A DNA stretch of 28,928 nt from a virus, in IMG/VR virus record IMGVR_UViG_3300034073_003927, positions 1 through 28,928 of that record. One strand, 5' to 3'. The position numbers and the translations under genes were made by a program. This document shows, in pieces, positions 3,469 to 27,961 of the stretch (position 1 is the first letter of the stretch; each line of letters opens with the position of its first letter). The notes under the pieces are model-generated. The model was not told the origin of the DNA. It saw nothing but the letters and a program-made list of their open reading frames with translations, and ran no database searches.

Positions 3469-3471
3469 AAC

Positions 3472-4914
3472 ATGGCAATAGTATCAGTAGGGCAAATTAC
3501 CCTCGTCGACAACAATGATGCACGTCCGTTAACCGCGTATCTGACTGTGAGCCCAGGCCCTCAGCAAGTTTTCAGTAAGGACGAATCGACAGTCTCTTAC
3601 TCACCAGATTGGACGCAGGGATCCGGTCTTGTGATAACTGCAAAAGTTTTTGCTGGAGCAATGTCAGCTGCCGAAGAGGTTACAGGACAGCTATCTAATC
3701 GTCGTTTTACATTAGATCTGACTACTGGCATCACTGGTACCAACGCTGCGATCAGTTCTAATACAGGTATGAATAACCAGTTTGCGACCGGTACTTACAC
3801 TGTGTTGCATGACGCAAGTAGTTCAGTTTTTACAGTGAAAGCAAATCTAAAGGATACAGTGCCGCAAGTTGTCGTCTATTTTGAGGGCGATTATCAGGAT
3901 CCTGTTACCGGCTTGGTCAGTCGAATAGTTGCCCAAATCACTCTCGGGCTGGTAAAGACTGGAACGAATGCGGTTTATCTGCTGACTCGTGGCAGCAGCT
4001 CAATTGAGCAAGCTTCTGGTGGTACGAAAAATGTAGTCGCATTGTCTGCAGATCTAATTAGGGCTGCAGGTGTTGATACAACCAGCGTAACGTACCAGTG
4101 GTTCAAAGGTGCGACTCAAATCATCAGCTCCGCGCCGTTTACAACACAGTTCGGTTTGAAAACTGTGGCCTCGCCAACGATACCAACGGGTTCTCAATCT
4201 GAAATTGGTGTCAATTTGCCCGCATCAAATGCCTGGTCAGCTCATAACACATTAGTTGTTCATGAGTCTGGTGTTACAGACATGCAAGTGTTCAGAGTTG
4301 TTGCCCGGGATGCTGATACAAAAACGTATCAGGCCTACTTTACGATTTACGACATATCAGATCCGTATGAAGTACGCATATTAAGCTCTGCTGGTGAAAA
4401 GTTTCAAAACGGTGTGGGTTCAACGCAACTAACGCCAGATGTGTTTTATGGCGCAACTCGAGTAACGGATTTATCAGGATGGACCTTTAGCTGGTCTCTG
4501 CGAGACAGAAATGGGAATAGGGCAGCTTTTGTCGACACAACAAAGACGGCCTTGGCTGGTGGCCGGTTGATATCGGGTAACACTGCCACAGCATTTACAT
4601 ACGGTGGCACAGCTATTTCTTTCGCCGCTACCGATTTAATAAAAGCGTTTAAGCCAGATGGAACAGCTCGGTTCTTTGAAGTAGCATCTGCAACGGGTAA
4701 CACGGTGACTATTAAAACATCTGGTTTCACTCACGCCGGCATCGATTTTACATCCTACCCACAGCCAACCGCCAGCGAGTTTGTCAACGGCAGATTGTTT
4801 GCGTGCACAACTAATGGAGGCCGGTTGACCACGACCGCCGCGGCATCAATAACAGTGACAGGTGATGATATTGATGTAAAAGGGTCAATCACCGTTGAAG
4901 CTGATCGTCCATAG
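3472..4914 (+). CDS. Tail fibre-like virion protein with J-proximal anchor domain
   Basis: A 480-residue, Ser/Thr/Gly-rich, probably all-beta protein without signal peptide. It begins MAIVSVGQITLVDNND, closely matching the start of the next gene (MAVVSVGQITLHDTYD), so the two probably share an N-terminal attachment domain that docks to the tail tip. The remainder resembles Ig-like or fibre domains (TYQWFKGATQI, FRVVARDADTKTYQ) but matches nothing I can name. A GGAG ribosome site precedes the ATG and includes the upstream stop, so translation is likely coupled to J. A role in host recognition or as an adaptor for the longer fibre is an inference from position. Confidence 0.6.
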   Translation: MAIVSVGQITLVDNNDARPLTAYLTVSPGPQQVFSKDESTVSYSPDWTQGSGLVITAKVFAGAMSAAEEVTGQLSNRRFTLDLTTGITGTNAAISSNTGMNNQFATGTYTVLHDASSSVFTVKANLKDTVPQVVVYFEGDYQDPVTGLVSRIVAQITLGLVKTGTNAVYLLTRGSSSIEQASGGTKNVVALSADLIRAAGVDTTSVTYQWFKGATQIISSAPFTTQFGLKTVASPTIPTGSQSEIGVNLPASNAWSAHNTLVVHESGVTDMQVFRVVARDADTKTYQAYFTIYDISDPYEVRILSSAGEKFQNGVGSTQLTPDVFYGATRVTDLSGWTFSWSLRDRNGNRAAFVDTTKTALAGGRLISGNTATAFTYGGTAISFAATDLIKAFKPDGTARFFEVASATGNTVTIKTSGFTHAGIDFTSYPQPTASEFVNGRLFACTTNGGRLTTTAAASITVTGDDIDVKGSITVEADRP

Positions 4915-13903: not shown

Positions 13904-15004
13904 TTAGCGTTTCAGGGCTTGGTCACATATAGTCCACTCAGGCTCATGCCTATCAGTGTAATGAGCCGTCATCTTCGCTGTGCTATGGGCCATTAGTGTT
14001 TGAACGTACTCTTCAGTAAAGCCAGCTTGCAGATATAGGTGCCCACCAAGAGCTCGTATTTCGTGGAAAGTAGGGCGCTGCTCAGGCTTTAGCTTGGCAA
14101 TCTCCGTTACCAGATCACGCACTGCTGCAAACTCTTTACTCAGTATCTCCGGACGAACCTGCGTCCAATGTGTCTTGTCCTTACTGGCTACAACCTTCTC
14201 CGGCCGACGATGAACTATATATGGGCTTGCGATGCCGGATGTTCTCGCTGCACGAACCACATCAGCTAAACCACCATCGACTTTAATTTTCAGGAATGAA
14301 CGGTTACCAAAGGACTCTGTTTTGCGTGAAATGATCTGCAGGTAACCGTCTTTAATATCATCAAACTTAGCCAGGCATAAATCGCCACGGCGCTGCAAAG
14401 TAACTAAGCCGAAGTCCATCGCATTTTTTAACCAAGGCTCGGCCAGGTCATGGATAGCGCGGTACCAATCATAAGAAAGTGGCATACGCTGTTTTTCTTC
14501 AGCCGCTTTAGCCAGAGTGCTTTCTACCGGGTTATCGTCCACGATGCCTTTGGTCAACGCAAACCTGAATATATCTACAAGCAAACCACGCATTTTCACG
14601 TAAGCATTGCTCTTAAATCCATTGTCCAGGTAGTCAGCCATAAAGCGCACTGACATATCGATCACCAGCATTTTTGACAGGTCTCGCTCCAAACGGTTTA
14701 GCCGGTATTCGGTTTCGGATAAAGTACGTTCCTTCAGCTTTTTGGTGGGTAAATACTCTTTGCGGTATCGCGTTAAGACATCGCTAAAGTGATTGGCTCC
14801 ATCTGAAATGACCCTGTGTGTCAGGTCAGATCCTTGTATCAGAATGGCGTTTAGTTTTCGGGCAGCAGTGTTAGCGGCCTTTTTGTTTTTGCCCATTCCG
14901 TGGAATTTGCCTGTCTGCGGGTGCTTGTATTTAAAGTACCCGTCAAACTGGTATAAATTCGGCTCTAAATCGTGGTTAATACCCAGCCGACGCCTTGCAT
15001 TCAT
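13904..15004 (-). CDS. int: Lambda-type tyrosine integrase
   Basis: A 366-residue site-specific recombinase that integrates and excises the phage at its attachment site. The N-terminus (DLEPNLYQFDGYFKYKHPQTGKFHGMG) matches the arm-binding domain of lambda Int. The core-binding region follows, then the catalytic domain: Arg in TLQRRGDL (about 205), Lys in SRKT (228), HEIR (314-317), His in LMAHST (340) and the nucleophile Tyr in TAHYTD (349). All key residues are present. It begins inside the xis stop (TAATG) and is followed by a terminator. The presumed target is the tRNA-Val fragment at 11391-11443, about 2.5 kb away with accessory genes between. Confidence 0.93.
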   Translation of the reverse strand: MNARRRLGINHDLEPNLYQFDGYFKYKHPQTGKFHGMGKNKKAANTAARKLNAILIQGSDLTHRVISDGANHFSDVLTRYRKEYLPTKKLKERTLSETEYRLNRLERDLSKMLVIDMSVRFMADYLDNGFKSNAYVKMRGLLVDIFRFALTKGIVDDNPVESTLAKAAEEKQRMPLSYDWYRAIHDLAEPWLKNAMDFGLVTLQRRGDLCLAKFDDIKDGYLQIISRKTESFGNRSFLKIKVDGGLADVVRAARTSGIASPYIVHRRPEKVVASKDKTHWTQVRPEILSKEFAAVRDLVTEIAKLKPEQRPTFHEIRALGGHLYLQAGFTEEYVQTLMAHSTAKMTAHYTDRHEPEWTICDQALKR

Positions 15005-15206: not shown

Positions 15207-15668
15207 TCAGCCTCCGATATGTGGCAACAGCGGCGGCATCTTGCCTGTGCGTTGCGCTTCGTCAATTTCGGGCAGCAGTCGCTGGCCTACTGTTTGGCCA
15301 CCTGGCAGCACCAGATGAGCCATGAATTCTTCTTCAAATGTAGTGATCCCGGCTTCTACTGCTTCCAGCTTTGCTTTAACCACCAGAGATAGAGCGCGGT
15401 ACTTTTGCTTACAGGCCTGTTCCCACTCTTTAAGTGCGACTGACTCTGAGCGGTCGCGGCCTGTGTCGGTAACCCAGAATTGGCGATCGGCTTTATCTGG
15501 CAGCGGCACAGTGATCCGGACCTGACGACCAGACATGACAAAGCCGATAACAGCGTATTGGCCTGTTTTGCCGTACATGAACTGATCGGCGCCGTATCTG
15601 GCCAGCACCTTTTCAATTTCTAACAGGCTGGCCGTTTGGCTAACTTGCGTGTCTTTTGCGTAGGCCAT
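15207..15668 (-). CDS. Conserved phage protein, unknown function
   Basis: A 153-residue soluble alpha/beta protein in the early operon, starting inside the stop codon of the cytosine methyltransferase gene (TAATG) and ending just before xis. Notable parts are YAVIGFVMSGRQVRITVPLP, a charged middle helix (EWEQACKQKYRALSLVVKAKLEAVEAG) and TFEEEFMAHLVLPGGQTVGQ. The last of these recalls a conserved phage/prophage family of unknown function often found among replication and recombination genes. No catalytic motif is clear. Confidence 0.6.
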   Translation of the reverse strand: MAYAKDTQVSQTASLLEIEKVLARYGADQFMYGKTGQYAVIGFVMSGRQVRITVPLPDKADRQFWVTDTGRDRSESVALKEWEQACKQKYRALSLVVKAKLEAVEAGITTFEEEFMAHLVLPGGQTVGQRLLPEIDEAQRTGKMPPLLPHIGG

Positions 15669-17491
15669 TATGCTGCTTGCTCCTGTTTGCCGGTGCAGAG
15701 TTCTGGTAAGTTCGCCCGGGTCAGTGCCTCGGCAAATACTGGTGGTACGGCATTACCACATCGAGCCACCTGAACTTTTTTAGATACCTTGTTACCTTTG
15801 GCATCCCGGTCAATTTTGTAATCTGAAGGGAATGACGTTGCTAAAAACAGTTCATCAGGATCAACCATCCTCATGAAAAGGTCGGTCATTATTCTTTTGC
15901 CCACAGAGATAAACTGTTTGCGTGGCTCTGGAATAATTAACCTTTCTTCTTCAGGGCCATACATTTCCATAAAACGTGCGACCCACCAGGCATCAAGTCG
16001 TTGCTGTTCAGTTAGTGGAGGTATTTCTAACTGGCAATTCACAGCAGAGAATCTATCTCTGGTGGTCACCGTGCCAAGTGGATTATCAACAGACTGGGCT
16101 ACACTGGAACCGTAGTATTTGACGAGTAGTGAGCGGATTTCACCGAAATGATTACCGCCTGCAGTGATTGTGTCTAAAGGCTGGTCTAGCGACTGGCCGA
16201 GATTAGTACCTTTCATCTTTATAATATGGCCAAAGACTAACGATTGATGATCAATCGGTTCGTCAGAAGCGGGCATTGGCACCAGAACTGGCGCTGCCAC
16301 ATAGCTATGCTGAGTAGCGCAAAGAGTATTCATTGGGCTTTCTAACGATTTTGGATTTCTGGCGTATGCGGGTCCACCTATACCCATGGCAAAGGGTGCA
16401 AGTTGTGCGTTCACTAATGCAAAGTGACCACCTTTAACCTGAGCGCATATAGTCCGCATTGGTTCATCTGCTGCCATATTTCTCTGATTGCTTGCGTTGG
16501 CATGTTCAGTGAGGAAAGGAGCAAGGCCTGGTTTCACAAGACCATGTGCATCATGGGCCGCGACTATAGTGTTAAATGGTTCATCAATAGACTGTCCTCT
16601 AAAATGGTCACCGCCATGGTTGCAGGTAACGATAAAAGGACGTTCGGCATCAATCACAAATCGTTTAGTTCCCTTTGCTATCCGTTTTAGCGTGTTAAGA
16701 GCCAACCATTTTGGACGATCGAAAATAGAGGTGATTGGCCTGGTGAAATCAATACACTCAGCTGCAGTTCTGTAGGGCAGTAGTTTGCCTGATTTAACAT
16801 CTGCGCTATTGGGTGCGCCGTGAGTTGGTTCTGGCCATACGACAGGCCGACCATCACAACGGGCCACCATAAACAGACGTTTGCGAATCGTTGGGGCGCC
16901 ATAATCACAGGCGCGCAGTTCTTTGTATTCCACCTTGTAGCCAAGGCCCTTGATAAGCGGTGCAGGATCTTCGATACCCAACACATCACAGCACTCAGCT
17001 AAGCCCGGATGATCGGGTGCTATGCCAGTACTGAGGATGGCAACGAATGCTTTAAAGGTTTCGCCTTTGCGTTCAGGGCAAGGGTAAGCACGGCCTTCAA
17101 GGTCGACAACAACAGGCCCCCACGTTTTGAACTCTTCGACGTTTTCAAGCATCAGCACTTTAGGGCGTACCAGCAGAGCCCAGCGCACACCAATCCATGC
17201 TAAACCACGGATCTCTTTGTTTACCGGCTTACCACCCTTAGCTTTCGAAAAGTGTTTGCAGTCCGGCGACAACCAGCACAGATCAACAGGACGGCCAGCT
17301 GTGGCCTGCACTGGGTCCACATCAAACACAGATTCGCAGTAGTGCAGGGTGTTCGGGTGATTGGCTGTGTGCATGGCAATAGCATCCGGATCATGGTTTA
17401 TTGCTATATCCACTGAGCAACCTGTTGCATCTTCAATTCCGGTACTGGCGCCACCACCACCAGCAAAGTTATCAACGATTAAGCCGCGCAT
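15668..17491 (-). CDS. C5-cytosine DNA methyltransferase
   Basis: A 607-residue Dcm-type enzyme that would methylate cytosine C5 in phage DNA. Motif I is DNFAGGGGASTGIE (residues 7-20), motif IV is LSPDCKHFSKAKGG with catalytic Cys at about 78 (SPDC instead of the usual PPC), motif VI is ENVEEF (about 116), motif VIII is RKRLFMVA and motif X is GNAVPPVFAEAL near the C-terminus. Between VIII and X lies a long region with five loose repeats of an S-x-D/E-x-P-x-x-T pattern, probably the target-recognition part. It overlaps the preceding adenine methyltransferase gene and has no restriction partner, fitting anti-restriction. Confidence 0.88.
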   Translation of the reverse strand: MRGLIVDNFAGGGGASTGIEDATGCSVDIAINHDPDAIAMHTANHPNTLHYCESVFDVDPVQATAGRPVDLCWLSPDCKHFSKAKGGKPVNKEIRGLAWIGVRWALLVRPKVLMLENVEEFKTWGPVVVDLEGRAYPCPERKGETFKAFVAILSTGIAPDHPGLAECCDVLGIEDPAPLIKGLGYKVEYKELRACDYGAPTIRKRLFMVARCDGRPVVWPEPTHGAPNSADVKSGKLLPYRTAAECIDFTRPITSIFDRPKWLALNTLKRIAKGTKRFVIDAERPFIVTCNHGGDHFRGQSIDEPFNTIVAAHDAHGLVKPGLAPFLTEHANASNQRNMAADEPMRTICAQVKGGHFALVNAQLAPFAMGIGGPAYARNPKSLESPMNTLCATQHSYVAAPVLVPMPASDEPIDHQSLVFGHIIKMKGTNLGQSLDQPLDTITAGGNHFGEIRSLLVKYYGSSVAQSVDNPLGTVTTRDRFSAVNCQLEIPPLTEQQRLDAWWVARFMEMYGPEEERLIIPEPRKQFISVGKRIMTDLFMRMVDPDELFLATSFPSDYKIDRDAKGNKVSKKVQVARCGNAVPPVFAEALTRANLPELCTGKQEQAA

Positions 17492-18327
17492 TGTTCAGCT
17501 TCCTTTTCTTTTGCCGCAACAGCAGCTGGGTTAATCCAAAGGCATTCAGTACGTAAGCCAGTACCACGGCCAGCGCTCATTCGGGCTGTTGTTTTGCTCA
17601 ACTGCCAACCAGGTAATAAATCGTTGTATAGGTCGCTCTCATAACCGCTGATGATGATCATGCCTTCCAGCTGCTTCAGGCCTGAAAGTAAAACCTCATG
17701 ATCTGCTACAGTCATTTCGTGGCGGTAATAGCGGTTTCTGCTGCACCTGGTTTCTGGTAGGTACGGAGGATCGACGTAATGCAAAGTGTCCGGTGTGTCG
17801 TGTGCTTGCATGACCTGCAGGGCATCACGGTTTTCAATGAGTACTCCGGTAAATCGTTTACCCAGCTCAGCCATGTGGTCTGGATATTCAGCCCAAAGGT
17901 GCATGGCATTGCCATATTTGCGTTTGGTGTCTGTTCTGAATCCGGTATTACCTGCTGTTCCAGCTGCTACACCAAAACCCATGGTGGCCCGAACAACTAC
18001 ACGCCTTGCACGTTCAACAGGGCAATCGCCTTCGTAGGCCTGACATGCAAGCACGAATTCTTCTCTGCTGTATGGCGTCAATCTGCAGGCCCGTTCCAGC
18101 TGCTGATTGGCAACTGGGTCACGCAGGACCTGAAAGAAGTTCACGATTTCAGAATCAAGGTCGTTATACACTTCGCTGTAAGACGGCTCTTTGCGCAGCA
18201 GTACGCCAGCAGCACCGCCGAAACACTCGACATAGCATCTATGTGCCGGAAAATGGCTGATCACCCAGGGGGCCAGCCGGAACTTGGCGCCGTGGTAACG
18301 CATTGCTGGTTTTTTTAATGGAGTCAT
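17479..18327 (-). CDS. Dam-like (D12 class) N6-adenine methyltransferase
   Basis: A 282-residue DNA adenine methyltransferase. MRYHGAKFRLAPWVISHFP (from residue 9) is the D12-class N-terminal motif, YVECFGGAAGVLLRK the S-adenosylmethionine site (motif I), YNDLDSEIVNFFQVL the following acidic strand, and HYVDPPYLPETR the catalytic DPPY motif IV. The start overlaps the MT-A70 stop by ATGA and the end overlaps the cytosine methyltransferase start by 13 bases, so all three enzymes are translated together. The recognition site cannot be read from sequence; GATC is possible but unproven. Confidence 0.88.
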   Translation of the reverse strand: MTPLKKPAMRYHGAKFRLAPWVISHFPAHRCYVECFGGAAGVLLRKEPSYSEVYNDLDSEIVNFFQVLRDPVANQQLERACRLTPYSREEFVLACQAYEGDCPVERARRVVVRATMGFGVAAGTAGNTGFRTDTKRKYGNAMHLWAEYPDHMAELGKRFTGVLIENRDALQVMQAHDTPDTLHYVDPPYLPETRCSRNRYYRHEMTVADHEVLLSGLKQLEGMIIISGYESDLYNDLLPGWQLSKTTARMSAGRGTGLRTECLWINPAAVAAKEKEAEQCAA

Positions 18328-19130
18328 GCCGCATCACCCTGTAAGTACACGGCCGCAACTTCCTTCAAAGTTGCCACTACCGCCTGTATAGCTTCGTCAT
18401 TGGTTTTACCGGAAAGGCGCAGCGAATTGGCCTGAGCGCAAAGCTCTGCATAGAACTGGTCGTTAGGTTCACAGGGGCACTGGTCCAGTGCTGATTCAAC
18501 CAGTTCGGTTACTTCGATAGGCCAGGTGTCGTTTACTACAGGCAAAGCCGGTTCTGTTTCAGCTGGTGCTGCCTCTCCAGCAATAGTGAGGCTTTTCTCT
18601 ACTTCATTACCCCAAACGTCCCAGCCTTCCGGTACGCAACGGGCAAACATTTCAAGGCGCGGCAGATCACCACACAGCTTTACTATGTCGTCGCGGAATA
18701 TAGCCGGCTTCTCTGAGTGTTCGCCCATCATTTCAGCGCGGACTTGGCGGATAGCTTTGTTTTCAGACTTAGGCTTTCCACGAACAGCGATCAAAGCGCA
18801 CTCAGCTCCGGCTCTGGTCCAGTAGCCCATACCAAAATGAGGCATCAGGTTAGTTGTCAGTTTTTGCCACACAAAGCAGTTCATGTTTTTCAACGTAAAG
18901 CCCCAAGCTTTCACCAGGTCCAGCGCTTCTTGAGGCTGGCTGCTCACGTACCACATGATCAGCACACAGTCTTTTTCGCAGATAGCTGGCACATCTAAAG
19001 CCTTCAGCTGATCCAGTGTCATGGTCGGATACTTAGCTGCAGCGCCTGACTTCATGCTGCCGCCAGTTTTAACACTGCTGAATGACCATGGCGGATCTGC
19101 GTAAATGATGCTGTATTTCTTGTCGCTCAC
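18324..19130 (-). CDS. MT-A70 family adenine methyltransferase
   Basis: A 268-residue protein with the MT-A70 catalytic motif DPPW (YSIIYADPPWSFSS, residues 7-20), the YPTMTLDQL substrate loop, and the C-terminal core motif EKPAIFRDDIVKLC...RLEMFAR. Phage members methylate adenine in DNA. An extra 80-residue acidic C-terminus (from about residue 185) lies outside the catalytic fold and is unexplained. The start is GTG overlapping the upstream stop (GTGA), which implies coupled, possibly lower, translation. It is the first of three adjacent methyltransferases in the operon. Confidence 0.88.
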   Translation of the reverse strand: MSDKKYSIIYADPPWSFSSVKTGGSMKSGAAAKYPTMTLDQLKALDVPAICEKDCVLIMWYVSSQPQEALDLVKAWGFTLKNMNCFVWQKLTTNLMPHFGMGYWTRAGAECALIAVRGKPKSENKAIRQVRAEMMGEHSEKPAIFRDDIVKLCGDLPRLEMFARCVPEGWDVWGNEVEKSLTIAGEAAPAETEPALPVVNDTWPIEVTELVESALDQCPCEPNDQFYAELCAQANSLRLSGKTNDEAIQAVVATLKEVAAVYLQGDAA

Positions 19131-19339
19131 TTGGCCACCTCACTGACTTCAATAGGCCAGCCGACCCAGCTTTTGCAGCTGCGTGATTCAACCAGGCGAT
19201 CATTCGTTACTTTGCGGCTTACCATTTCTTCGGCGCAGTATTCCGCCCGAGTGGATACAGGGCGAGGGTAGACGGCAACCACTATTACCGCGGCGAATCC
19301 GGCAATGCCGATGGCTGTTAAAAATTCGGGGCGTTTCAT
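19127..19339 (-). CDS. Small membrane-anchored protein, unknown
   Basis: A 70-residue protein with one hydrophobic helix near the N-terminus (TAIGIAGFAAVIVVAVYP, residues 8-25), followed by a Cys-containing, probably periplasmic tail (EYCAEEMVSRKV). The start overlaps the preceding stop (ATGA) and the end overlaps the GTG of the MT-A70 gene. Function unknown; superinfection exclusion is a general possibility for such proteins, but nothing here shows it. Confidence 0.55.
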   Translation of the reverse strand: MKRPEFLTAIGIAGFAAVIVVAVYPRPVSTRAEYCAEEMVSRKVTNDRLVESRSCKSWVGWPIEVSEVAK

Positions 19340-19638
19340 GCTGACACCTCATTAAGCAGTACCAAAGGTTCGTCGGCGTCTACACAGGCCAGCAACCAAT
19401 CATCATTGGCCTGGTACTCAACGAACAAAGTAGCTGTGGCTTGGTACTCAACGAACAAAGCTGCTGTATTTTCCTCGTCGAACTCGCAAAGCTCTGGATC
19501 CGCAATTTCGCCAAAGATCATATCGACTGAACCGTTGCCATAGGCCTGGGCTATAACCACACATTTGCGGCCGATAAGCTGGGGCAGAGTGAATTGCTGC
19601 AGTGCTTCTTGAGCGGTTAGGGTGATGCCGTTGATCAT
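19336..19638 (-). CDS. Small acidic phage protein with internal duplication
   Basis: A 100-residue acidic protein. The start overlaps the upstream stop as ATGA, and the end overlaps the next start the same way. Residues about 60-80 hold a recent tandem duplication: LFVEYQATAT followed by LFVEYQANDD, encoded by a 30-bp near-exact repeat around 19410-19460. The N-terminus (INGITLTAQEALQQFTLPQLIGRKCVV) looks folded. No known domain; function unknown. Confidence 0.55.
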   Translation of the reverse strand: MINGITLTAQEALQQFTLPQLIGRKCVVIAQAYGNGSVDMIFGEIADPELCEFDEENTAALFVEYQATATLFVEYQANDDWLLACVDADEPLVLLNEVSA

Positions 19639-20270
19639 GCTGCCACCTCACGTACTACACCGTTTGTTGTCAGTACTTTGAATTCGATAACCCAAACCCA
19701 TGGGTTCGCGTTCCAGTCTCCACCTGTTTGTTCCCATACACGGCGGAAAGCAGCGATCGGCTTTTCGCACCAACCTACAGCAAGTGCAGCTTCACTTTTG
19801 GAGTTGTCACAGCCTTCTGCACAAGCGTCTGCCTCGGTGATATCATGCAGCCTCTCAACGCGCACACTGGCTATTTCAAGGATGATCCGGCAGGCCCAGC
19901 GAGGCATGTGGATTGATGGGCGCCAGCGACAAACCGTTTCATCATCTAAAGTTGTGAATTCAGGCCTTGCTGTACCGTCAGCTGCATAAACACAGAACCC
20001 TGGCTTTTCGTAGCCATCTGGATAATCGCCACCCTGATCAATTAACGGGCCTTGGAATGTCTCTCGCACCCAAAGCCGATCACCAGGTTGACCAACTTTG
20101 CTGTTAATAAAATCACCGGCATTAATTTCACCGGCTATTTCATGCAAAGCGAGTTCACAGTTAAAGTTTGCGTCCTTGCACGGTTTAAGTAGCCTGCGAG
20201 TCTGAGTTTTCCGGCCTGCCAAAATGGCCTGCACCATGGCGGTGTTGAATAAAATAGGACGTTCTTTCAT
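19635..20270 (-). CDS. Conserved phage protein, possibly ASCH/PUA-like
   Basis: A 211-residue member of a common phage family that begins MKERPILFNTAMVQAILAGRKTQTRR and ends in WVWVIEFKVL; a central GDRLWVRETF and a MPRWACRIILEI segment are also typical. The pattern (KTQTRR near the start, GDRLWVRE, then HDITEADA) resembles ASCH/PUA-like proteins, which may bind RNA or modified nucleotides. Some homologues are labelled morphogenetic without proof. Coupled by ATGA overlaps on both sides within the early operon. The family resemblance is from memory. Confidence 0.6.
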   Translation of the reverse strand: MKERPILFNTAMVQAILAGRKTQTRRLLKPCKDANFNCELALHEIAGEINAGDFINSKVGQPGDRLWVRETFQGPLIDQGGDYPDGYEKPGFCVYAADGTARPEFTTLDDETVCRWRPSIHMPRWACRIILEIASVRVERLHDITEADACAEGCDNSKSEAALAVGWCEKPIAAFRRVWEQTGGDWNANPWVWVIEFKVLTTNGVVREVAA

Positions 20271-20905
20271 GCTGACACCTCGCCAGATTTAAGCGTGTCG
20301 TACATGTGGATCGCGTGCACAATGGCGTAGCAGCACCAGATATAGTGAAAGCGAAACTTGTCTAAGCCACCGTCCCAAAAGTCGACAAGCTCCATACCGC
20401 CAGCAATAGAGCTGTCCCATTCGTTTATTCGATATACAACGTCATATTCACTTCTTTCGTAATAGTTAATGAAGTCGTTCACAGCACCCGTAGCTTCTTC
20501 AATTTTCTGAGCTTCGCTTTCGTCTTCCGGATCTAAACTCTCGACAAACTCAGCAAGGTATTCTTTAAGCCTTGTTTCGTATGCGTCGAAATCAGGCTCT
20601 GAGGTGATAGCGTTGGCGCCAGAATGACCAGCTCCTGCTTGAACCTTTTCTTCCCAGTAAGTCGGGTTTATTGCGCCAGGCGTACCACGAAAAAATTCAA
20701 ACATGTCGGTCAAACGGTAAAAAGTAAAACAGCCCATATCGCCACTTATGCAAAGGTAACCAGGCCATGTGGTGATGTTGTAGTGCATGCTATTGGTGTT
20801 TGGCTTTGCTACCTTTAAATGACGATAAAGCCCATCATCTTTAAGAACTGTTAGCTGGTGCAGCTCTACATCTTTTGTAAAGCGCTCAAAAGTGCAACTG
20901 GTCAT
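20267..20905 (-). CDS. Conserved phage early protein, unknown function
   Basis: A 212-residue acidic protein of a family frequent in gammaproteobacterial prophages. The recognisable part is LTVLKDDGLYRHLKV...NITTWPGYLCISGDMGCFTFYRLTDMFEFFR (residues 18-75), followed by an acidic helical region and an aromatic C-terminus (FHYIWCCYAIVHAI). Its function is unknown. It starts inside the RT stop codon (ATGA overlap), so it is translated directly after the reverse transcriptase, but there is no reason to count it as a DGR component. Confidence 0.6.
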   Translation of the reverse strand: MTSCTFERFTKDVELHQLTVLKDDGLYRHLKVAKPNTNSMHYNITTWPGYLCISGDMGCFTFYRLTDMFEFFRGTPGAINPTYWEEKVQAGAGHSGANAITSEPDFDAYETRLKEYLAEFVESLDPEDESEAQKIEEATGAVNDFINYYERSEYDVVYRINEWDSSIAGGMELVDFWDGGLDKFRFHYIWCCYAIVHAIHMYDTLKSGEVSA

Positions 20906-22209
20906 AAAATTAACCTCTGAACATTGTTAGTCTTTATCTCAACCAGCTGACCTTCCAGCCGGTAATCAAACTTGCGGTTTACTGTGACTGAGCTGATCCA
21001 CGGGTAGCGGTCCAGAATCTTGCCCATCAGCCTGGTACTGTTCGATTGCTTAATGTGGCCTGTGTAGCTGGCAACCACAGAACGGATATGCCGGATATCT
21101 TCAGGTGTTGCTGTGATTGCGTCAGGAGTGACGAACTGGCTTTCAAAGCTGGCCAGAGCCTCTTGGAAGTGGCTTACAACACGACGGCGTGTTTGTGTGT
21201 GAGTGGGGCGGACTACATACCCAAGAAAATCGATACCATCGGTTAAGGGGCGCAGCTTAATATCCGGCTTTAACTTCAGACGTAAGCGCGTGGCAATAAA
21301 CTGCTCTATCTCGGCCTGCCAGCTCTGCAGCTGAGCTTTGTCGTGGTGAATAAGCACAAAGTCATCCACATAACGCAGATAGCGCTTTGCTTTTAAAACG
21401 TGCTTAACGAATTGATCCAACTCGTTCAGATAGACGTTGGCGAAGAACTGCGAACTCAAATTGCCAATAGGTAGGCCGCAACCAGGTGCAGAGTTTTCTA
21501 AACGCTTATGCATTGGCACTATGGAGCGCTCAGCGTCTGAACACAGGTATCTAACACCTTGCTGCAACGGATGGTGTTTCAGTAGCGCATGAGTGGCATG
21601 CATCACCTGGTTGGATGCACCTGATTTCACCAGCTTCGCCTTTAACTGACTCCACAGAGTCTGGCGGTGAATTGAGTTAAAGAAGTTGTGAATATCCAGC
21701 TGCAGGTAAAAGGCTTTAGGAGCCTGCCGGATAAACTGCTGCAAACGCTCAACTGCTTTGTGTGAGCCTTTACCTTGTTGGTTTGCATAGCTGTCGTAAA
21801 TAAAAGCCGGCTGCCACAGTTTTTCCAGCTGTGGTACCAACCAATGGTGTACAACACGGTCTGAAAAATCAGGCGCATGTATTTCACGGGCTTTTGGCCG
21901 AGCAGCAATAAAACAGGTGCTTGGCTTTGGCTGCCATGAACAGTCGTTAATGCTGTGCTGCAGTTCCAGTAGGCCAGTTGACCAACTGGTGTCGAAATGC
22001 AGTTGGTTTGAGCTTGGCTTTTTGCCTTTGCGGGCCTTCACCCAAGCGTTATAAATTTGCTGGAGCGAAACGACTTCATTGCACTGACACTCACCGCCGC
22101 GAACCGCACGGACACAGGCGTTGTTGTTGATGTCGTTGTTGTTGACATTGCCGTTGTTGAAATTGACCACCCAGCGGGCAGACTTGTTACCGTTCACTTG
22201 AAGCGTCAT
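20902..22209 (-). CDS. DGR reverse transcriptase with in-frame template repeat
   Basis: A 435-residue reverse transcriptase that copies the template RNA with adenine errors so that the cDNA can replace target repeats. Motifs: PKAREIHAPDFSDRVVHHWL (about 105-124), NQQGKGSH (143-150), LDIHNFFNSI with the first catalytic Asp (172), LPIGNLSSQFFANVYL (the DGR-type IGxxxSQ motif, 247-261), RYVDDFVLI (YVDD 280-283), and LGYVVRPTHTQTRRR. The ATG at 22209 overlaps the avd stop as ATGA and has an AAGGGG ribosome site. Residues about 10-39 are encoded by TR; no in-frame start exists between TR and the conserved domain, so the RT seems to begin with a TR-encoded, Asn-rich peptide. Confidence 0.93.
   Translation of the reverse strand: MTLQVNGNKSARWVVNFNNGNVNNNDINNNACVRAVRGGECQCNEVVSLQQIYNAWVKARKGKKPSSNQLHFDTSWSTGLLELQHSINDCSWQPKPSTCFIAARPKAREIHAPDFSDRVVHHWLVPQLEKLWQPAFIYDSYANQQGKGSHKAVERLQQFIRQAPKAFYLQLDIHNFFNSIHRQTLWSQLKAKLVKSGASNQVMHATHALLKHHPLQQGVRYLCSDAERSIVPMHKRLENSAPGCGLPIGNLSSQFFANVYLNELDQFVKHVLKAKRYLRYVDDFVLIHHDKAQLQSWQAEIEQFIATRLRLKLKPDIKLRPLTDGIDFLGYVVRPTHTQTRRRVVSHFQEALASFESQFVTPDAITATPEDIRHIRSVVASYTGHIKQSNSTRLMGKILDRYPWISSVTVNRKFDYRLEGQLVEIKTNNVQRLIL
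22093..22184 (-). repeat. DGR template repeat (TR)
   Basis: A 92-bp repeat shared with the ends of three target genes. On the minus strand it holds ten AAC/AAT codons plus GAC and ATC in a 45-base core, flanked by adenine-free arms, including the A-free 3' end that matches all VRs. It differs from the VRs almost only at adenines, as expected of a DGR template. It lies between avd and RT, inside the RT reading frame. Confidence 0.95.
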
Positions 22210-22688
22210 TGCACATCCCCTTGGGTAGCACAACGTTGCCGATGTTTTGGCCCCGATTGAGAGGCGTAACGGTCACTCAGTATCTGAGCACGCTCCTGCT
22301 GTGACACAACAGAATTCTGGCCCTTATCGTGCAATGCGCGTTTCCATCCACCAGCACAGCGGCCTAAATCATCAGCTGCACGAATAATCACTTCAAACTG
22401 AGCGAAGCTTTTAAACGCATACAGCTGCTTGGCCAGCTGAATAACTACTTTCAGTTCGTCAATCACCCAAACCAGTTCGTTCACCCAATGAATTTGACGG
22501 CTACGGTCACGCCAGGCGCGGTTGCATACCTGAACAACCAGCATCACTGCTGTTCTCAGGTTGGCCCCGATCGCGTACTTGTTGTACTTGGCAAAACCCC
22601 TGACTGCATTCTCAATAGCAACAGCCAGGCTTTCTGCCTTACGAGCAATTTCTGGTAATCCGTTTCTGTTAGCCGTCATAGCACTCAC
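22206..22688 (-). CDS. avd: Avd-like accessory variability determinant
   Basis: A protein of up to 160 residues (157 from the ATG at 22679), helical, and matching the Avd/four-helix-bundle pattern: basic helices KAESLAVAIENAVRGFAKYNKYAIGANLRTAVM, then VCNRAWRDRSRQIHWVNELVWVIDELKVVIQLAKQL and FAQFEVIIRAADDLGRCAGGW. Avd proteins form a pentameric barrel that binds the RT and template RNA and is needed for mutagenic homing. It follows VP1 by about 25-30 bases and overlaps the RT start (ATGA). Start choice is open between GTG 22688 and ATG 22679. The basic C-terminal tail is longer than typical. Confidence 0.88.
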   Translation of the reverse strand: MSAMTANRNGLPEIARKAESLAVAIENAVRGFAKYNKYAIGANLRTAVMLVVQVCNRAWRDRSRQIHWVNELVWVIDELKVVIQLAKQLYAFKSFAQFEVIIRAADDLGRCAGGWKRALHDKGQNSVVSQQERAQILSDRYASQSGPKHRQRCATQGDVQ

Positions 22689-22711
22689 TCACAAATCAAA
22701 AAGACAAAAAT

Positions 22712-23083
22712 TTACTGACCGCCGCGAACCGCACGGACACAGGCGTAGGTGCCGACGTCGTAGCCGTTGACAAAGCCGTTGAAGAAATAGACCACCCAGC
22801 GGGCAGACTCTGGACGTCTGACCCATGGTGTACTTGTCCAATAACAGTCGCTTTCAGTATCCGGAAAAACTTCTGCATCGATTGCTGGGTCGTATTTAGT
22901 GCGGTCGACAATGGTTTGCAGCTCGTCTACCGTAGGTAAACGCCAGCCTTCGCCTAAAGCCTCAACGGCCTTTACTGCATCTTCAAAAGTGACATCGCTC
23001 GCCACTGTGTTTTGGCTCCACACCAGACCTGTTACTGAATCTGTTACTGTTTTGCCGTCTTCGCTTTTAGTAAAACGTGACAT
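22712..23083 (-). CDS. DGR target protein VP1 (DUF1566-type)
   Basis: A 123-residue protein in which nearly the whole length is a DUF1566/Lcl-C-like domain: VTGLVWSQN, ALGEGWRLPTVDELQTIVD, then FPDTESDCYWTSTPWV and the variable C-terminus. Residues 99-113 are the diversified positions, encoded by VR1; framework residues RWVV, Phe100, Gly103, Val105, Asp109 and ACVRAVRGG match TR. The fold is probably C-type-lectin-like, displaying variable side chains for ligand binding, which is inference from other DGR targets. No signal peptide is seen. The ribosome site is AAGGA; the gene directly precedes avd. Confidence 0.88.
   Translation of the reverse strand: MSRFTKSEDGKTVTDSVTGLVWSQNTVASDVTFEDAVKAVEALGEGWRLPTVDELQTIVDRTKYDPAIDAEVFPDTESDCYWTSTPWVRRPESARWVVYFFNGFVNGYDVGTYACVRAVRGGQ
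22718..22809 (-). repeat. Variable repeat VR1
   Basis: Aligned to TR over 92 bp, it has 13 differences, all at positions where the coding strand of TR has A. The last ~28 bases before the VP1 stop, which are adenine-free in TR, are identical to it. Confidence 0.95.
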
Positions 23084-23124
23084 TGGTTTTTTCCTTCTGG
23101 GTTGGTTAAATCAAAAAACAGAAA

Positions 23125-23562
23125 CTACTGACCGCCGCGAACCGCACGGACACAGGCGCCGTGGCTGATGCCGTTGCCGTCGACATTGCCGTCGTTGAAA
23201 TCGACCACCCAGCGGGCAGACTCTTTGTTCCAGGCGCATGGCGTTGCCGTCCAGTACCAGGTGCTTTTGGTATCCGGATACTTGTCGGTATCAATGCATG
23301 GGTCGTGGCGCTCTAAATCGACAAGCGTCAGCAGTTCTTCACGGGTAGGCAGGCGCCAGCCTTCGCCTAATTCAGCCACTACCTTTTTGGCTTTTTCGAA
23401 GTTAGCCTTCTCGCCGTCCAGCAGTGTTTTGCTCCACTCAAGGCCAGTGGCTGGCTCAAGTACAGCTGAAGTGACAGCAGGGGCTTCAGCAGCTGGCGAA
23501 CCGGCAGCGGTGAAGTGAACGTTTACCGTCGCACCCTTTTCGCATGTGATATGTAAATTCAT
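23125..23562 (-). CDS. DGR target protein VP2 (DUF1566-type)
   Basis: A 145-residue target with a 45-residue N-terminal extension absent from VP1 (MNLHITCEKGATVNVHFTAAG, then an Ala/Pro/Ser-rich linker), followed by the DUF1566-type domain (ATGLEWSKTLLDG, ELGEGWRLPTREELLTLVD, FPDT-like YPDTKSTWYWTATPC). Residues 121-135 are VR2-encoded and differ from VP1 and VP3. The extension may attach the domain to a partner; this is inference. Its ATG overlaps the stop of the frame-split gene upstream (ATGA), and an AAGG ribosome site is present. No signal peptide. Confidence 0.88.
   Translation of the reverse strand: MNLHITCEKGATVNVHFTAAGSPAAEAPAVTSAVLEPATGLEWSKTLLDGEKANFEKAKKVVAELGEGWRLPTREELLTLVDLERHDPCIDTDKYPDTKSTWYWTATPCAWNKESARWVVDFNDGNVDGNGISHGACVRAVRGGQ
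23131..23222 (-). repeat. Variable repeat VR2
   Basis: Aligned to TR over 92 bp, it has 10 differences, all at TR adenines. The result is a Gly/Asp/His/Ser-rich face unlike the aromatic-rich VR1 and VR3. Ends are identical to TR. Confidence 0.95.
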
Positions 23563-23943
23563 AGTGATTGACCTTTCAGTTGATAATCATTGCCCGGCAC
23601 AAACTGCACATAACGCTGCACGGTTTTGCTGCGGCCTTTTTTGTCTTTCGATACGGCTGGTGCTTTGATAAACACGCTGCACCGGACAAAGCCCTGTTTC
23701 TCTGCCATGGCTATGTACTGGTCGCACGTAGTCGGCATGCTGTATTCGGGACTGACGCGCACAGGGGGGGGCAGTCTCAAGCAGCTTTGCTAATAACTCA
23801 GCCTCTACAGCCTCGACGGCCGGAACTTTGGTTTTACCCTTGGTTTCCTTCGCCTTCTTCTGCGCTTTACCGACAACAGCCAGAGCCTGTTTATGGGCCT
23901 TCTCTTTCACTTTTTTAGGGTCGACACCGAATACAGCAAACAT
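23559..23943 (-). pseudogene. Frame-split gene at a C8 tract (phase-variable or indel)
   Basis: A good start (ATG 23943, GGAGG site) opens MFAVFGVDPKKVKEKAHKQA, rich in Lys/Ala, to residue 58 (LLETA). At 23764-23771 a run of eight C (minus strand) puts the rest out of frame. The other frame continues VRVSPEYSMPTTCDQYIAMAEKQGFVRC to VPGNDYQLKGQSL and overlaps the VP2 ATG as ATGA. With seven C the two parts join into a 127-residue protein. As read, translation runs on in the wrong frame to about 23587. The good start and coupled end argue that both halves belong to one gene. Function unknown; ON/OFF slippage, programmed shift or sequencing error are all possible. Confidence 0.7.
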
Positions 23944-23945
23944 GG

Positions 23946-24845
23946 TTAGGCCTCCGGTTTCAGGTTGGCCAACAGGCTGGCAAGGTTTTGTTTGAACTGA
24001 CCGGACATCAGAATAAAGTCGGCATCTAAGCGGCCTATAACATCGTCCCAGCCCAGTTCTTCGTTGTCGTTGCAAAGCAGGTCGTGGAATTTAATGCCGG
24101 TTAAGCTGCCGTCATCGCGCACGGTAAAGCTGATTTTCTCGTCCTGCTCTAACTGCAGCTGAGTAACCAGCTTGTCCTCTAAGTGGCTTTGCACTTCATC
24201 AGCGGATAACAGGTGGTTGATAAACTTGGCCTGAGCGCCTTCTTCATCTGGGGCTTTCAGCACAGCAGAACTGCCCAGCGTAATACCAGCAGGCAACTCT
24301 TTCCCCTGCAGCCAGAAGTGCATTTGTTGGTTTAACTGGTGGTTGTCCAGCAGCGGCATAGCTGGCAGTGAGCCAAAGGCCTTACGCAGCAGGGCCAGAA
24401 ACTCTTCGGCCGTTGAAGCGCTTGCCGTATCGACTATCAGCATGCTGGTGCTACGGTCGTAGTACGCAGTGGTTACAGTCGATTTACTGAAAGCACGTGG
24501 CAACAGGGTCTGGATCAACTCTTCTTTTAAGGCCTGCTTTTCTTTACGGCTTAATGGGCGGCCTTTTTCTTGCTCCATGGCTTCTACTTTCGGCGCCAGT
24601 TCTTCATTCACTACGGCAGATGGCAACAGCTTTTCCTGCTTCTTGATGCTGAACACCATCAAATCGCCCACCTGGTGGCAATACTCTTTAGTGCCCGGGT
24701 GCATTGCAAAGCAGAAGCCCAGCTTTAAGGCTTCTTGTGAAGTGCATGGCGTAAACTTGAAAGCCGCTAAGGCCTGTTCAATTTGCCCGTGATCATTGTC
24801 TAAAAGTTCGGTAATGGCATACAGCCTGGCATTTTTAAACCACAT
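23946..24845 (-). CDS. rdgC: RdgC-like recombination-associated protein
   Basis: A 299-residue homologue of RdgC, the ring-shaped DNA-binding protein that limits RecA loading. It shows the family start MWFKNARLYAIT, FTPCTSQEALKLGFCF, IKKQEKLLPSAVV, LKEELIQTLLPRAFSKS, MLIVDTASASTAEEFLALLRKAFGSLP and RLDADFILMSGQFKQNLASLL. The length matches bacterial RdgC (about 300). The ATG at 24845 overlaps the upstream gene by 11 bases, and the next gene begins three bases after its stop. In a phage it could modulate RecA-dependent recombination or induction. Its nearness to the DGR may be coincidental. Confidence 0.9.
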   Translation of the reverse strand: MWFKNARLYAITELLDNDHGQIEQALAAFKFTPCTSQEALKLGFCFAMHPGTKEYCHQVGDLMVFSIKKQEKLLPSAVVNEELAPKVEAMEQEKGRPLSRKEKQALKEELIQTLLPRAFSKSTVTTAYYDRSTSMLIVDTASASTAEEFLALLRKAFGSLPAMPLLDNHQLNQQMHFWLQGKELPAGITLGSSAVLKAPDEEGAQAKFINHLLSADEVQSHLEDKLVTQLQLEQDEKISFTVRDDGSLTGIKFHDLLCNDNEELGWDDVIGRLDADFILMSGQFKQNLASLLANLKPEA

Positions 24846-25173
24846 GGTTCTGCTCCTGTGTAACGGCAGATAAGCCAGCTCTTGCGCCTTGAGCTATCAG
24901 CCAGTTGATTGCTTTTGGTGAAGGCCTGTAAGTGCCTTCGTGTGATAACAGCCAGCCGCGATCAGCAAGTTCACCAACTTGATAAACGGCCTGTGCATGG
25001 CTGTGAAAGGTGCCTAAACGTTTAATGGCGCCAATAGCCATGACACTGTCAGGACCAATGCAGTGCTGATCCATCAGTTGCAGCGTGTTGATCTGCTTCT
25101 CTGTCAATTCAGGGCAAGAAGGCATTGCAAAAACCGAAGTAGGGCATAGCTCTGCTGTCTGAACTGCGCTCAT
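24835..25173 (-). CDS. Small early protein, possible winged-helix
   Basis: Starting at ATG 25173, which overlaps the upstream stop as ATGA, this is a 112-residue protein. The middle and C-terminal parts (LTEKQINTLQLMDQH, VYQVGELADRGWLLSHEGTYRPSPKAINWLIAQG) resemble a winged-helix arrangement, where GWL..EGTYRPSPKA would be the wing. No family name can be given. It overlaps rdgC and is surely part of the same operon. A DNA-binding regulator is possible. Confidence 0.5.
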   Translation of the reverse strand: MSAVQTAELCPTSVFAMPSCPELTEKQINTLQLMDQHCIGPDSVMAIGAIKRLGTFHSHAQAVYQVGELADRGWLLSHEGTYRPSPKAINWLIAQGARAGLSAVTQEQNHVV

Positions 25174-25496
25174 GCTGCCCACCGACAAAACTGCAACACA
25201 TTGGTGAACGTTTCGGTGCGCACAACAGTGACGCCGATCATGTTGTGGTCGATATACAGGGCAAAGCGGCCATCAAAACCAATGGTGGCCATTCGGTCCA
25301 TGTAAGTGCTCTGGAACTCTGGTGATGGTAGGTGCGCTTTAATGCGGCGTAATAGCCGGTGAGCTGACGCTAGAACTGCAGGGTCAGTATTCAAATCTTC
25401 AGCTTTACTCATAAAACAACGAAAGCGCAGGCTCAACAGCAGCAGCTCTTCCATAGCGTGTTTGCGGCGGTGGGTGGTTTTTGTTAAGACTGACAT
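25170..25496 (-). CDS. Small early phage protein, unknown
   Basis: A 108-residue, partly basic protein beginning MSVLTKTTHRRKHAMEELLLLSLRFRCFM. The start is preceded by a GAGG ribosome site. Its first seven codons nearly duplicate those of VP3 (MTVLTKTT) through a 20-bp repeat. The second half (IGFDGRFALYIDHNMIGVTVVRTETFTNVLQF) is beta-rich. It is the second gene of the leftward operon and ends in an ATGA overlap with the next. No known domain. Confidence 0.55.
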   Translation of the reverse strand: MSVLTKTTHRRKHAMEELLLLSLRFRCFMSKAEDLNTDPAVLASAHRLLRRIKAHLPSPEFQSTYMDRMATIGFDGRFALYIDHNMIGVTVVRTETFTNVLQFCRWAA

Positions 25497-25945
25497 TTGT
25501 TAAACCCTCGTTTGGTTGTTAAAAGCAAAAAGGCAAAGAACTACTGACCGCCGCGAACCGCACGGACACAGGCGTCGTAGTAGATGTCGTGGTAGTAGAC
25601 ATGGCCGATGACAAAAAAGACCACCCAGCGGGCAGCGTTCTCGCCTGAGCCCTCATCCCATTTGCATGGTGTGCCGGTCCAGTACCAGGTGCTTTTGGTG
25701 TCAGGGAATAAATCGGTATTGATGGCTGGGCCAAGGCGGGTATCGTCAACCAGTGACACCAATTCAGCGCGGGTTGGTAGGCGCCAGCCTTCGCCTAAGG
25801 CTGCTACTGCTTCAGCCGCAGCTTTGTAATCCACTCTACGGCCATCCAGTAAAGTAGGGCTCCACTCCAGCGTTGTGGCTGGTGTAGTAATGGTCACAGT
25901 TGCAAACGGTGCTGCTTGTTCGGTTTGGGTGGTTTTTGTTAAGAC
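25471..25945. repeat. 20-bp direct repeats bracketing the VP3 gene
   Basis: An identical 20-bp sequence starting TGGGTGGTTTT and ending GTTAAGAC occurs at 25471-25490 and 25926-25945, at the start codons of the unknown gene and of VP3. The repeats enclose VP3 as a 455-bp unit that could have arisen by duplication or be lost by recombination. Confidence 0.6.
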
Positions 25946-25951
25946 AGTCAT
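25541..25951 (-). CDS. DGR target protein VP3 (DUF1566-type), first early gene
   Basis: A 136-residue target protein with a short, Thr-rich N-terminal extension (MTVLTKTTQTEQAAP...). The DUF1566-type domain follows (ATTLEWSPTLLDG, ALGEGWRLPTRAELVSLVD, LFPDTKSTWYWTGTPC), and the variable end occupies residues 112-126, encoded by VR3 and Tyr/His/Phe-rich. An insertion (GSGEN) precedes the RWVV framework compared with VP1. It is the promoter-proximal gene of the leftward operon, with an AGGA ribosome site. No signal peptide. Expression is probably under repressor control through the operators near 26.0 kb. Confidence 0.88.
   Translation of the reverse strand: MTVLTKTTQTEQAAPFATVTITTPATTLEWSPTLLDGRRVDYKAAAEAVAALGEGWRLPTRAELVSLVDDTRLGPAINTDLFPDTKSTWYWTGTPCKWDEGSGENAARWVVFFVIGHVYYHDIYYDACVRAVRGGQ
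25547..25635 (-). repeat. Variable repeat VR3
   Basis: Over 89 bp it has 12 differences from TR at TR adenines and one silent C-to-T change (TTC to TTT). The upstream match ends three bases earlier than in VR1 and VR2. Confidence 0.93.
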
Positions 25952-25962
25952 CTTTTAGTCCT

Positions 25963-25997
25963 TATAGTCATTTTTCATGCTGCGTAAAATGACTATA
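25963..25997. promoter_or_regulatory. 12-bp inverted repeat in the leader of the early operon
   Basis: TATAGTCATTTT and AAAATGACTATA (25963-25974, 25986-25997) are separated by 11 bases. The right arm covers the leftward -10 box, so it is a likely repressor operator; as RNA it would also form a hairpin just before VP3. Confidence 0.55.
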
Positions 25998-26020
25998 ATC
26001 ACCTTTGTGTTGCTTGTAAA
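25992..26020 (-). promoter_or_regulatory. Leftward early promoter (PL-like)
   Basis: On the minus strand TTTACA (26015-26020), a 17-base spacer and TATAGT (25992-25997) form a near-consensus sigma-70 promoter, 41 bases before the VP3 start. It would drive the whole operon to int. It overlaps the inverted repeat and a TATAATCACCTT element shared with two other promoters. Confidence 0.65.
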
Positions 26021-26048
26021 CATAAAAAATGACAATATGCACCCTAAA

Positions 26049-26061
26049 GTTGCATATATGC
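26049..26061 (+). promoter_or_regulatory. GTTGCATATA operator-like element
   Basis: GTTGCATATATGC, containing the palindrome GCATATATGC, recurs as GTTGCATATA at 28474 and 28506. It is probably a binding site of a phage regulator. The rest of 26021-26234 is AT-rich with no recognisable gene; a start for the next gene presumably lies within. Confidence 0.45.
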
Positions 26062-26234
26062 CTTTTGGTGGGTTGTTGAATGGTCTTCAAAAGGTGGATT
26101 CCGCTGCAATGGACTTTCATATTTTTCACATATAAAGAAATTATCAAAAGTTGGGACTTATAAGATGTGTTTAGTCGTGTTAGATTTGGTTCATCAACAA
26201 TCTGTTATAGCGAATAATCAACTTGGGGTTGTCT

Positions 26235-26576
26235 ATGAACATTTCGCAAATTGGAAGTAACTCAGCTGGTGCAGTGTCAACTGGAACCGTAGCTGCCAAC
26301 CCAGCTACTGAGTTAGGAGCAAAAGAGCCTATTGTTAGCAGTGCTGATAAAGTGACTTTGTCCGCAGAAGCACTGGCTCTTTTAAAGCGGGATGAAGATT
26401 CTGGTTCAGAAACTATGGGTAGTGGTTCTGGTGGTGTGCCGGATTTGCCCGTTAAGCAGCCTGAAGTCCAAACTTTAGGTAGTGGTTCTGGTGGTGTGCC
26501 GGATTTGCCAGTTAAGCAGCCTGAAGTCCAAACTTTAGGTAGCGGTTCTGGCGGCGTGCCAGATTTACCGAAATAA
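26235..26576 (+). CDS. Small protein with 20-residue tandem repeats
   Basis: Starting at ATG 26235 with a GGGG ribosome site (an upstream TTG is possible), it encodes 113 residues. The N-terminal half (MNISQIGSNSAGAVSTGTV ... VTLSAEALALLKRDED) is Ser/Ala-rich and could be helical around residues 40-55. The C-terminal half is two and a half copies of GSGSGGVPDLPVKQPEVQTL, flexible and Gly/Pro-rich. No signal peptide is evident. It begins a plus-strand accessory group between the two early promoters, perhaps expressed in the lysogen. Function unknown. Confidence 0.55.
   Translation: MNISQIGSNSAGAVSTGTVAANPATELGAKEPIVSSADKVTLSAEALALLKRDEDSGSETMGSGSGGVPDLPVKQPEVQTLGSGSGGVPDLPVKQPEVQTLGSGSGGVPDLPK
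26418..26573 (+). repeat. 60-bp coding tandem repeat
   Basis: Units start at 26418, 26478 and 26538 (last one partial). The first two are almost identical and the third has several silent changes. The period is a multiple of three, so copy-number change would keep the frame. Confidence 0.85.
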
Positions 26577-26590
26577 AGTAGGTCATAGAT

Positions 26591-27091
26591 ATGTGGCCAG
26601 AGGGTTTTCTATCACTCGATTCAATTCAGTTGGCAGTAACTGCATTTTTTCTTCTGTTGTTTTACGCAGTGAAAATAGATAGTTCATCGACTGCATCACT
26701 TTTTATTTGGGTGATACACGATGTGAGTTGTCAGTTGTTAAATGGGACTGTAATGGGTCTAGCACAAAGTTACCCTGATGTTGGCTACGGGATCTGGTAT
26801 GGCAGTTGGTCGATTGCGGCAGCTGCTTCTATCTACTGTATTTATCATGTTCATTTGAAGTGGAAGTTGGTTCCAACCAGGCTTTCGTTATTTTTATCTG
26901 TTTCTCTAGTAACAGTTATTTTCTTGCAGTGTTTCGGATTTTATCTAAGAGCTGTTTTGCACGAAAGATCTTTAGATTGGGTTTACCAGTACGGGATTAT
27001 TACTATCTACGTAGCGGTTGTGCCGTTTGTTATTTTTGAGTTTTATTCTAAATATTTTAAAAACATACTTAAAACGAGGGAACTGTTTTGA
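26591..27091 (+). CDS. Multi-pass membrane protein, unknown
   Basis: A 166-residue, very hydrophobic protein with four to five predicted membrane helices, about residues 12-28, 36-55, 70-88, 98-118 and 133-152 (for example LSLFLSVSLVTVIFLQCFGFYL). No transporter or enzyme motif is recognised. It ends in an overlap with the following TTG start (TTGA), so the two are coupled. Membrane proteins in this part of a lysogenic phage sometimes act in superinfection exclusion or host modification; that is only a hypothesis here. AT-richer than its neighbours. Confidence 0.6.
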   Translation: MWPEGFLSLDSIQLAVTAFFLLLFYAVKIDSSSTASLFIWVIHDVSCQLLNGTVMGLAQSYPDVGYGIWYGSWSIAAAASIYCIYHVHLKWKLVPTRLSLFLSVSLVTVIFLQCFGFYLRAVLHERSLDWVYQYGIITIYVAVVPFVIFEFYSKYFKNILKTRELF

Positions 27092-27901: not shown

Positions 27902-27925
27902 TTTTTAGTCTTTTCCATAATCGTT

Positions 27926-27961
27926 AAAGTGATTATAGTCAGCTTGTATTGTGCAATACAA
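27926..27961 (-). promoter_or_regulatory. Promoter and operator of the repressor-like gene
   Basis: On the minus strand TATAAT (27932-27937) lies 18 bases after TTGTAT. The -35 sits in a perfect palindrome TTGTATTG-TG-CAATACAA (27944-27961). The element AAAGTGATTATA (27926-27937) is the reverse of that at the rightward promoter. Autoregulation is likely. A G7 run (27969-27975) follows; 27976-28090 holds no evident gene, only AT-rich DNA with an apparent start region for the lipoprotein. Confidence 0.55.

Follow-up and report, generated by a model that had tools for sequence, protein, structure and literature searches.

Here, we describe a diversity-generating retroelement (DGR) in the virus record IMGVR_UViG_3300034073_003927, the entire 28928 bases of which were analyzed as one window. 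We consider it probable that this is an active DGR of a lineage in which a single polycistronic transcript, running from avd through a structured RNA element into a template repeat (TR) that lies inside the reverse transcriptase (RT) gene, plays two roles. As judged from sequence, information flows from the TR to the variable repeats (VRs), the start of the RT gene is coupled to avd, the RT reading frame continues through the TR, and an RNA with covarying base pairs lies 5' of the TR. An earlier reading of the same DNA, made without database searches (the original prediction), had recognized a complete DGR but missed both the nesting of the TR in the RT gene and the structured RNA.

By nearly every testable feature, the locus is certainly a DGR. 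The predicted components, namely an RT, an Avd, one TR and three VRs, were all found, and all of them are on the minus strand. The RT open reading frame (ORF; 20902..22209, 435 aa) is of the DGR type as claimed, with matches to RVT_1 (E 4e-18) and phrog_1423 (E 3e-102) and intact IGNLSSQ and YVDD motifs, and the best match of the RT profile of its clade was PDB 8ub7 ('Reverse transcriptase', E 6e-54). Its ATG at 22209 overlaps the stop codon of the Avd gene (22206..22688, 160 aa) in an ATGA sequence. The Avd assignment was borne out by phrog_3206 ('Avd protein of DGR', E 5e-13), and the match to Pfam bAvd (E 1e-6) fell below the curated cut-off of that family. The TR is located at 22093..22184. 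Three genes with profile matches to Lcl_C (DUF1566; E 1e-18 to 2e-28) are the targets, and each carries a VR at its 3' end, again in agreement with the original prediction: a 123-aa gene (22712..23083; VR 22718..22809), a 145-aa gene (23125..23562; VR 23131..23222) and a 136-aa gene (25541..25951; VR 25547..25635). Mismatches between TR and VR fell on TR adenines in 13 of 13, 10 of 10 and 12 of 13 cases, respectively, that is, 35 of 36 over the three VRs. The expected repertoire of ∼10^12-10^13 stop-free variants was also reproduced, because the ten AAY codons, together with GAC and ATC, allow 15^10 x 16, or ∼9e12. It should be noted that the span originally assigned to the element, 22093-25951, contains the TR, Avd and the targets, but the RT lies mostly outside it, with its stop at 20902. 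Lcl_C/DUF1566 is reported to adopt a C-type lectin (CLec) fold (PMC6642488); the predicted structure model of one target was too poor to confirm a C-type-lectin-like fold. The Lcl_C targets are distinct from the tail fibres, which form a separate plus-strand block.

The VR comparison among sister genomes that the original prediction had proposed revealed variability at adenine sites in both sister and clade phages. Two sister records (L005 and L006) carry the same cassette with ∼88% DNA identity to the window, and their TRs differ from the window TR at 5 and 2 positions, respectively. In both of them, private non-adenine TR bases recur in the VRs of the same record, whereas adenine sites vary freely. 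We also examined 74 orthologous VR pairs from clade relatives, excluding same-contig duplicates and clones, which gave no VR variation. Differences were observed at 1065 of 1710 TR-adenine sites, compared with 8 of 6099 other VR sites and 1361 of 14668 sites in the adjoining upstream gene bodies. With the reservation that the 74 pairs are not all independent, adenine sites differ several hundred times as often as other sites, as would be expected if TRs are still being copied into VRs with adenine mutagenesis. In addition, 74 of 77 non-adenine TR changes were mirrored in both VRs. Clade VRs vary at adenines and otherwise equal the TR of their own phage, and these genomes indicate that retrohoming is active on an evolutionary scale, the sense in which the claim of an active element is upheld. 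It is very improbable that the DGR has decayed and that its VRs are fossils no longer overwritten. One non-adenine mismatch in the VR at 25547-25635 would suit such decay, and the evidence for activity comes from genomes rather than from reads or cultures. However, the RT motifs are intact, and sister VRs differ at adenines and yet private TR bases are common to all VRs of each phage.

The TR is located inside the RT ORF rather than beside the RT gene. It spans roughly codons 9-39 and is read there in the frame that the targets use, and the RT N-terminus matches the C-termini of all three targets. Among relatives with an RT identity of at least 48%, the TR was inside the RT ORF in 80 of the 82 loci with a detected TR, nearly all of them behind an ATGA-type start; these loci (about 80) are referred to as the nested-TR clade. 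In 78 of the 80, the RT start was coupled to an Avd-length ORF. Of the 66 non-redundant members, 64 use the target frame for the TR in the RT (63 according to a script, and L160 by eye), and the translations of L165, L167, L196 and L204 show the target frame. In the two exceptions, L009 (6827-6995) and L186 (3848-4020), the TR is in another frame and the RT ORF is still open through it: the frame shift that precedes the TR is compensated beyond it, and the TR-encoded peptide becomes Thr-rich. In-frame nesting by chance was rejected on the basis of these two compensated cases and of the TR-to-RT gaps, which (−2, 1, 4, 7, 10, 13, 16, 19, 22 and 25 nt) all keep the frame. A tree of 132 RTs separated most loci with the TR 100-200 nt upstream, as in Bordetella phage BPP-1, from the loci whose TR is at or inside the RT 5' end. 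The group that includes the window (54 rows; Shimodaira-Hasegawa approximate likelihood ratio test (SH-aLRT) 98, from a quick method without bootstrap) consisted entirely of nested loci. The nested TR is well supported by these data. Structure prediction with AlphaFold gave predicted local distance difference test (pLDDT) values below 50 for RT residues 1-42, which are predicted to be disordered, and mostly 85-98 for the RT core. As a separate observation, in L183 (about 3460-4010) an Avd-like stretch runs stop-free in the RT frame into the leader, TR and RT, which represents either a natural Avd-RT fusion or a sequencing error.

An alternative explanation is that this is an ordinary DGR whose RT begins at a GTG or TTG codon in or after the TR, the overlap being a compact and functionless relic; its frame would then lack stops simply because no TR codon (NNY) can be one in the target frame. 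The target frame of TRs is indeed stop-free by design, and an overlap between a TR and the end of an RT ORF is a recorded arrangement. In addition, GTG or TTG codons, which could in principle start translation, are present inside the TR in 53 of the 66 members and after it in 22. Nevertheless, we regard this explanation as improbable. The coupling to Avd through ATGA is conserved, as is the leader that precedes the TR (leader dN/dS 0.25, close to the 0.22 of the RT body), indels on either side of the TR keep the RT frame, and the ORF remains open in L009 and L186 despite their TR being in another frame. Moreover, the window, together with 40 of the 66 members, has no in-frame start codon between the TR end and residue 55.

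The second feature overlooked before is a structured RNA adjoining the 5' end of the TR. The 90-odd bases of this region (22188..22280 in the window, minus strand) fold into three helices, P1, P2 and P3, that enclose the RT start codon. P1 is the closing stem; its 5' arm belongs to avd and its 3' arm to the end of the RT leader, next to the TR, and it closes exactly at the TR border. P2 is a hairpin whose 3' strand is a Shine-Dalgarno (SD)-like sequence (GAGG/GGGG) in most members, and P3 is a hairpin around CTACC...GGATG. In the group of the window, the 3' strand of P3 contains the RT ATG; the start codon has thus changed its position with respect to the hairpins, and the hairpins still adjoin the TR. 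The element was first recognized from single folds; in a codon-based alignment, hairpins of different length were misaligned, and RNAalifold nearly missed it.

Standard pairs made up 91.9% of the pair cells when 18 sequences were aligned without gaps by MAFFT, and changes on both sides were found in 13 of 24 pairs versus 6.2 in shuffles (0 of 500 shuffles was as high). Pairing fell to 32-44% when the partner was slid by 1-3 columns, a control that somewhat favours the structure, which was read from those 18 sequences; the shuffles are free of that fault. A covariance model built from the 18 sequences matched all 65 clade records searched, each time 5' of the TR, and the window, which was absent from the seed, was matched with 62.4 bits (E 6e-12). 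In the 65-sequence alignment, all six P1 pairs covary, 98.7% of P1 cells pair, and 160 double-change cells were counted versus 34 in the comparison. As this alignment was fitted to the model, the 18-sequence alignment is the cleaner test. Protein coding was rejected as the source of the P1 covariation, because P1 pairs codons of avd with codons of the RT leader, that is, of two genes.

The covariance model gave one match in each of three whole genomes, and two matches in 200 genomes of one order, namely the starting genome and one further genome. In the latter, found by the RNA alone, an RT, a TR and two VRs adjoin the match. The element was also present directly 5' of the TR in L077 and L078, although their TR is not nested in the RT, and weaker matches, likewise 5' of the TR, were found in L081, L082 and L098. 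BPP-1-like clades had no match to the model. Rfam contained no family for the element, and its sole match within 19000-27000 was below the gathering score and located elsewhere. Two other DGR clades (L017-L022, L040 and L030-L055) have different covarying folds on the 5' side of the TR, at about 120 nt (consensus −23.8 and −22.7 kcal/mol, from few sequences), with double changes in 12 of 21 and 16 of 25 pairs, respectively, and almost no fold 3' of the TR. The 5' RNA domain is well supported, and we infer its function as set out below.

It is also possible, if rather unlikely in our view, that the element only regulates RT translation, as a thermosensor-like or coupling hairpin, and has no role in templating. 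The location of the start codon and, in most members, of the SD-like sequence within helices would fit such a role. On the other hand, the element in L077 and L078 lies directly 5' of a TR that is apart from the RT start, P1 ends exactly at the TR border, and the start codon in the group of the window has moved relative to the hairpins while these stayed beside the TR.

The 3' side of the TR was different. In BPP-1, a structured spacer between TR and rt recruits bRT-Avd and primes the cDNA, and a stem-loop is located 3' of the VR (PMC12875486). The present DGR resembles that of BPP-1 in its RT, Avd and TR, adenine mutagenesis, a VR at the target 3' end, the avd-TR-rt order and a small difference at the 3' end between the initiation of mutagenic homing sequence (IMH) and its TR counterpart (IMH*). 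In contrast with BPP-1, it has no TR-rt spacer; the TR is inside rt (16 nt from the TR end to RT residue 45), and the conserved fold is 5' of the TR. Perfect stems 3' of 119 VRs showed no excess over shuffles, a comparison restricted to perfect stems. The IMH*-like TR 3' junction (GGTGAGTGTCAG, 22084..22095, minus strand) has the motif GTGAGTnTCAG, which is conserved at the nucleotide level throughout the clade, as expected of an IMH*; its codons end in T, although C would be the usual choice in these GC-rich genomes. At the position of GTGAGT in the TR, nearly every VR carries GTCAGT (GGTCAGT in the VRs of the window).

The end of the VR might also be recognized by the RNA element. In the main clade, the unpaired 5' tail of the element, ACTGA, is complementary to the VR end TCAGT, whereas the TR has TGAGT. 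Corresponding pairs were observed in a sister clade (tail TCACTGT, VR end ACAGTGA, with a mismatched TR), in L077/L078 (CACTGA and TCAGTG, with TCAATG in the TR) and in the L017 clade (TCACTGG and CCAGTGA), where complementarity was predicted before checking. In all four groups, the tail is mismatched to the TR end. Covariation of the flanking base in the main clade was not significant (p 0.14), and over all loci the VR end had no advantage over the TR end in its longest match to the tail. Because statistical support is incomplete, the guide idea is kept as a lead only. A combined proposal, in which the 5' domain switches the transcript between message and template and the tail pairs as a guide with the VR end (IMH) and not the TR end, giving retrohoming its direction, is speculative and has perhaps a minor chance of being correct.

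On the basis of this anatomy, we propose that one transcript would be both the RT message and the template. The 5' RNA may mark and position the template for the RT-Avd complex, the role of the 3' spacer in BPP-1. When folded, the element would hide the RT ribosome site and the transcript would be used as template, whereas a ribosome translating avd would open the element and the transcript would be used as RT message. The TR-encoded peptide might be a disordered extension that the RT tolerates. The cDNA would then overwrite the three VRs, whose ends have GTCAGT versus GTGAGT in the TR. Besides the GTG and TTG codons mentioned above, several points weigh against this two-role transcript. The proposal gives no account of how cDNA is primed without a 3' spacer. 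No conserved fold was detected in the part of the RT coding region that follows the TR (consensus −1.2 kcal/mol), in a test that may miss structure poorly conserved in sequence. Taken by itself, the element of the window has no clear advantage in folding over shuffles (z −1.1), and the case rests on covariation. One locus, L014, has no coupled in-frame start. Finally, the switch between message and template is a proposal from anatomy, and the mechanism as a whole was derived by sequence analysis alone.

The overlap of a TR with the end of an RT ORF was recorded in 2012 as structural group 3 in DiGReF (Schillinger et al., 2012; PMC3521204), and the TR described here shares this feature. In the accessible part of that paper, the group is described by position, and target-frame nesting, Avd coupling and an RNA element are not mentioned. 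In Stenotrophomonas sp. SKA14, one cassette likewise serves several DUF1566 targets carrying VRs, and a TR inside the RT is not discussed in the accessible part of the report (PMC6642488). In the open-access literature searched, we found neither in-frame nesting with Avd coupling nor the 5' RNA described; priority is not certain, since the search left out most subscription papers, including those on the BPP-1 ribonucleoprotein structure. Detailed knowledge of the DGR mechanism comes mainly from BPP-1, in which the 3' spacer serves RT recruitment and cDNA priming. A widespread lineage with no spacer, a nested template and a fold on the other side suggests that template recognition and priming probably differ there. 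This lineage makes it testable how DGRs pick their template and share a transcript between translation and reverse transcription, and the covariance model can find such DGRs from RNA alone.

With regard to the genomic context, the record can fairly be described as a fragment of a temperate tailed phage, because it contains an integrase (13904..15004, minus strand; phrog_1 E 1e-37), lambda-J-like and fibre genes on the plus strand, and three DNA methyltransferase genes. The integrase and the tail genes support the temperate phage of the original prediction, of which the record is a 28.9 kb fragment. No near nucleotide relative was found in the phage collection. The methyltransferase genes are arranged in a row near the integrase (15668-19130, minus strand). 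An RdgC-like recombination protein gene (23946-24845, minus strand) sits among the DGR target genes in the same operon. Between it and the 145-aa target, a small gene (23559-23943, minus strand) has its frame broken by eight consecutive C; sister L005 has one base fewer there, pointing to either a sequencing error or a recent frameshift. A 40-nt inverted repeat (25990-26029 and 27902-27941, 70% complementary) borders a block of 1.9 kb that lies upstream of the DGR operon. In a small gene adjoining the operon, two tandem 60-nt copies (26410-26529, plus strand) are 95% alike.

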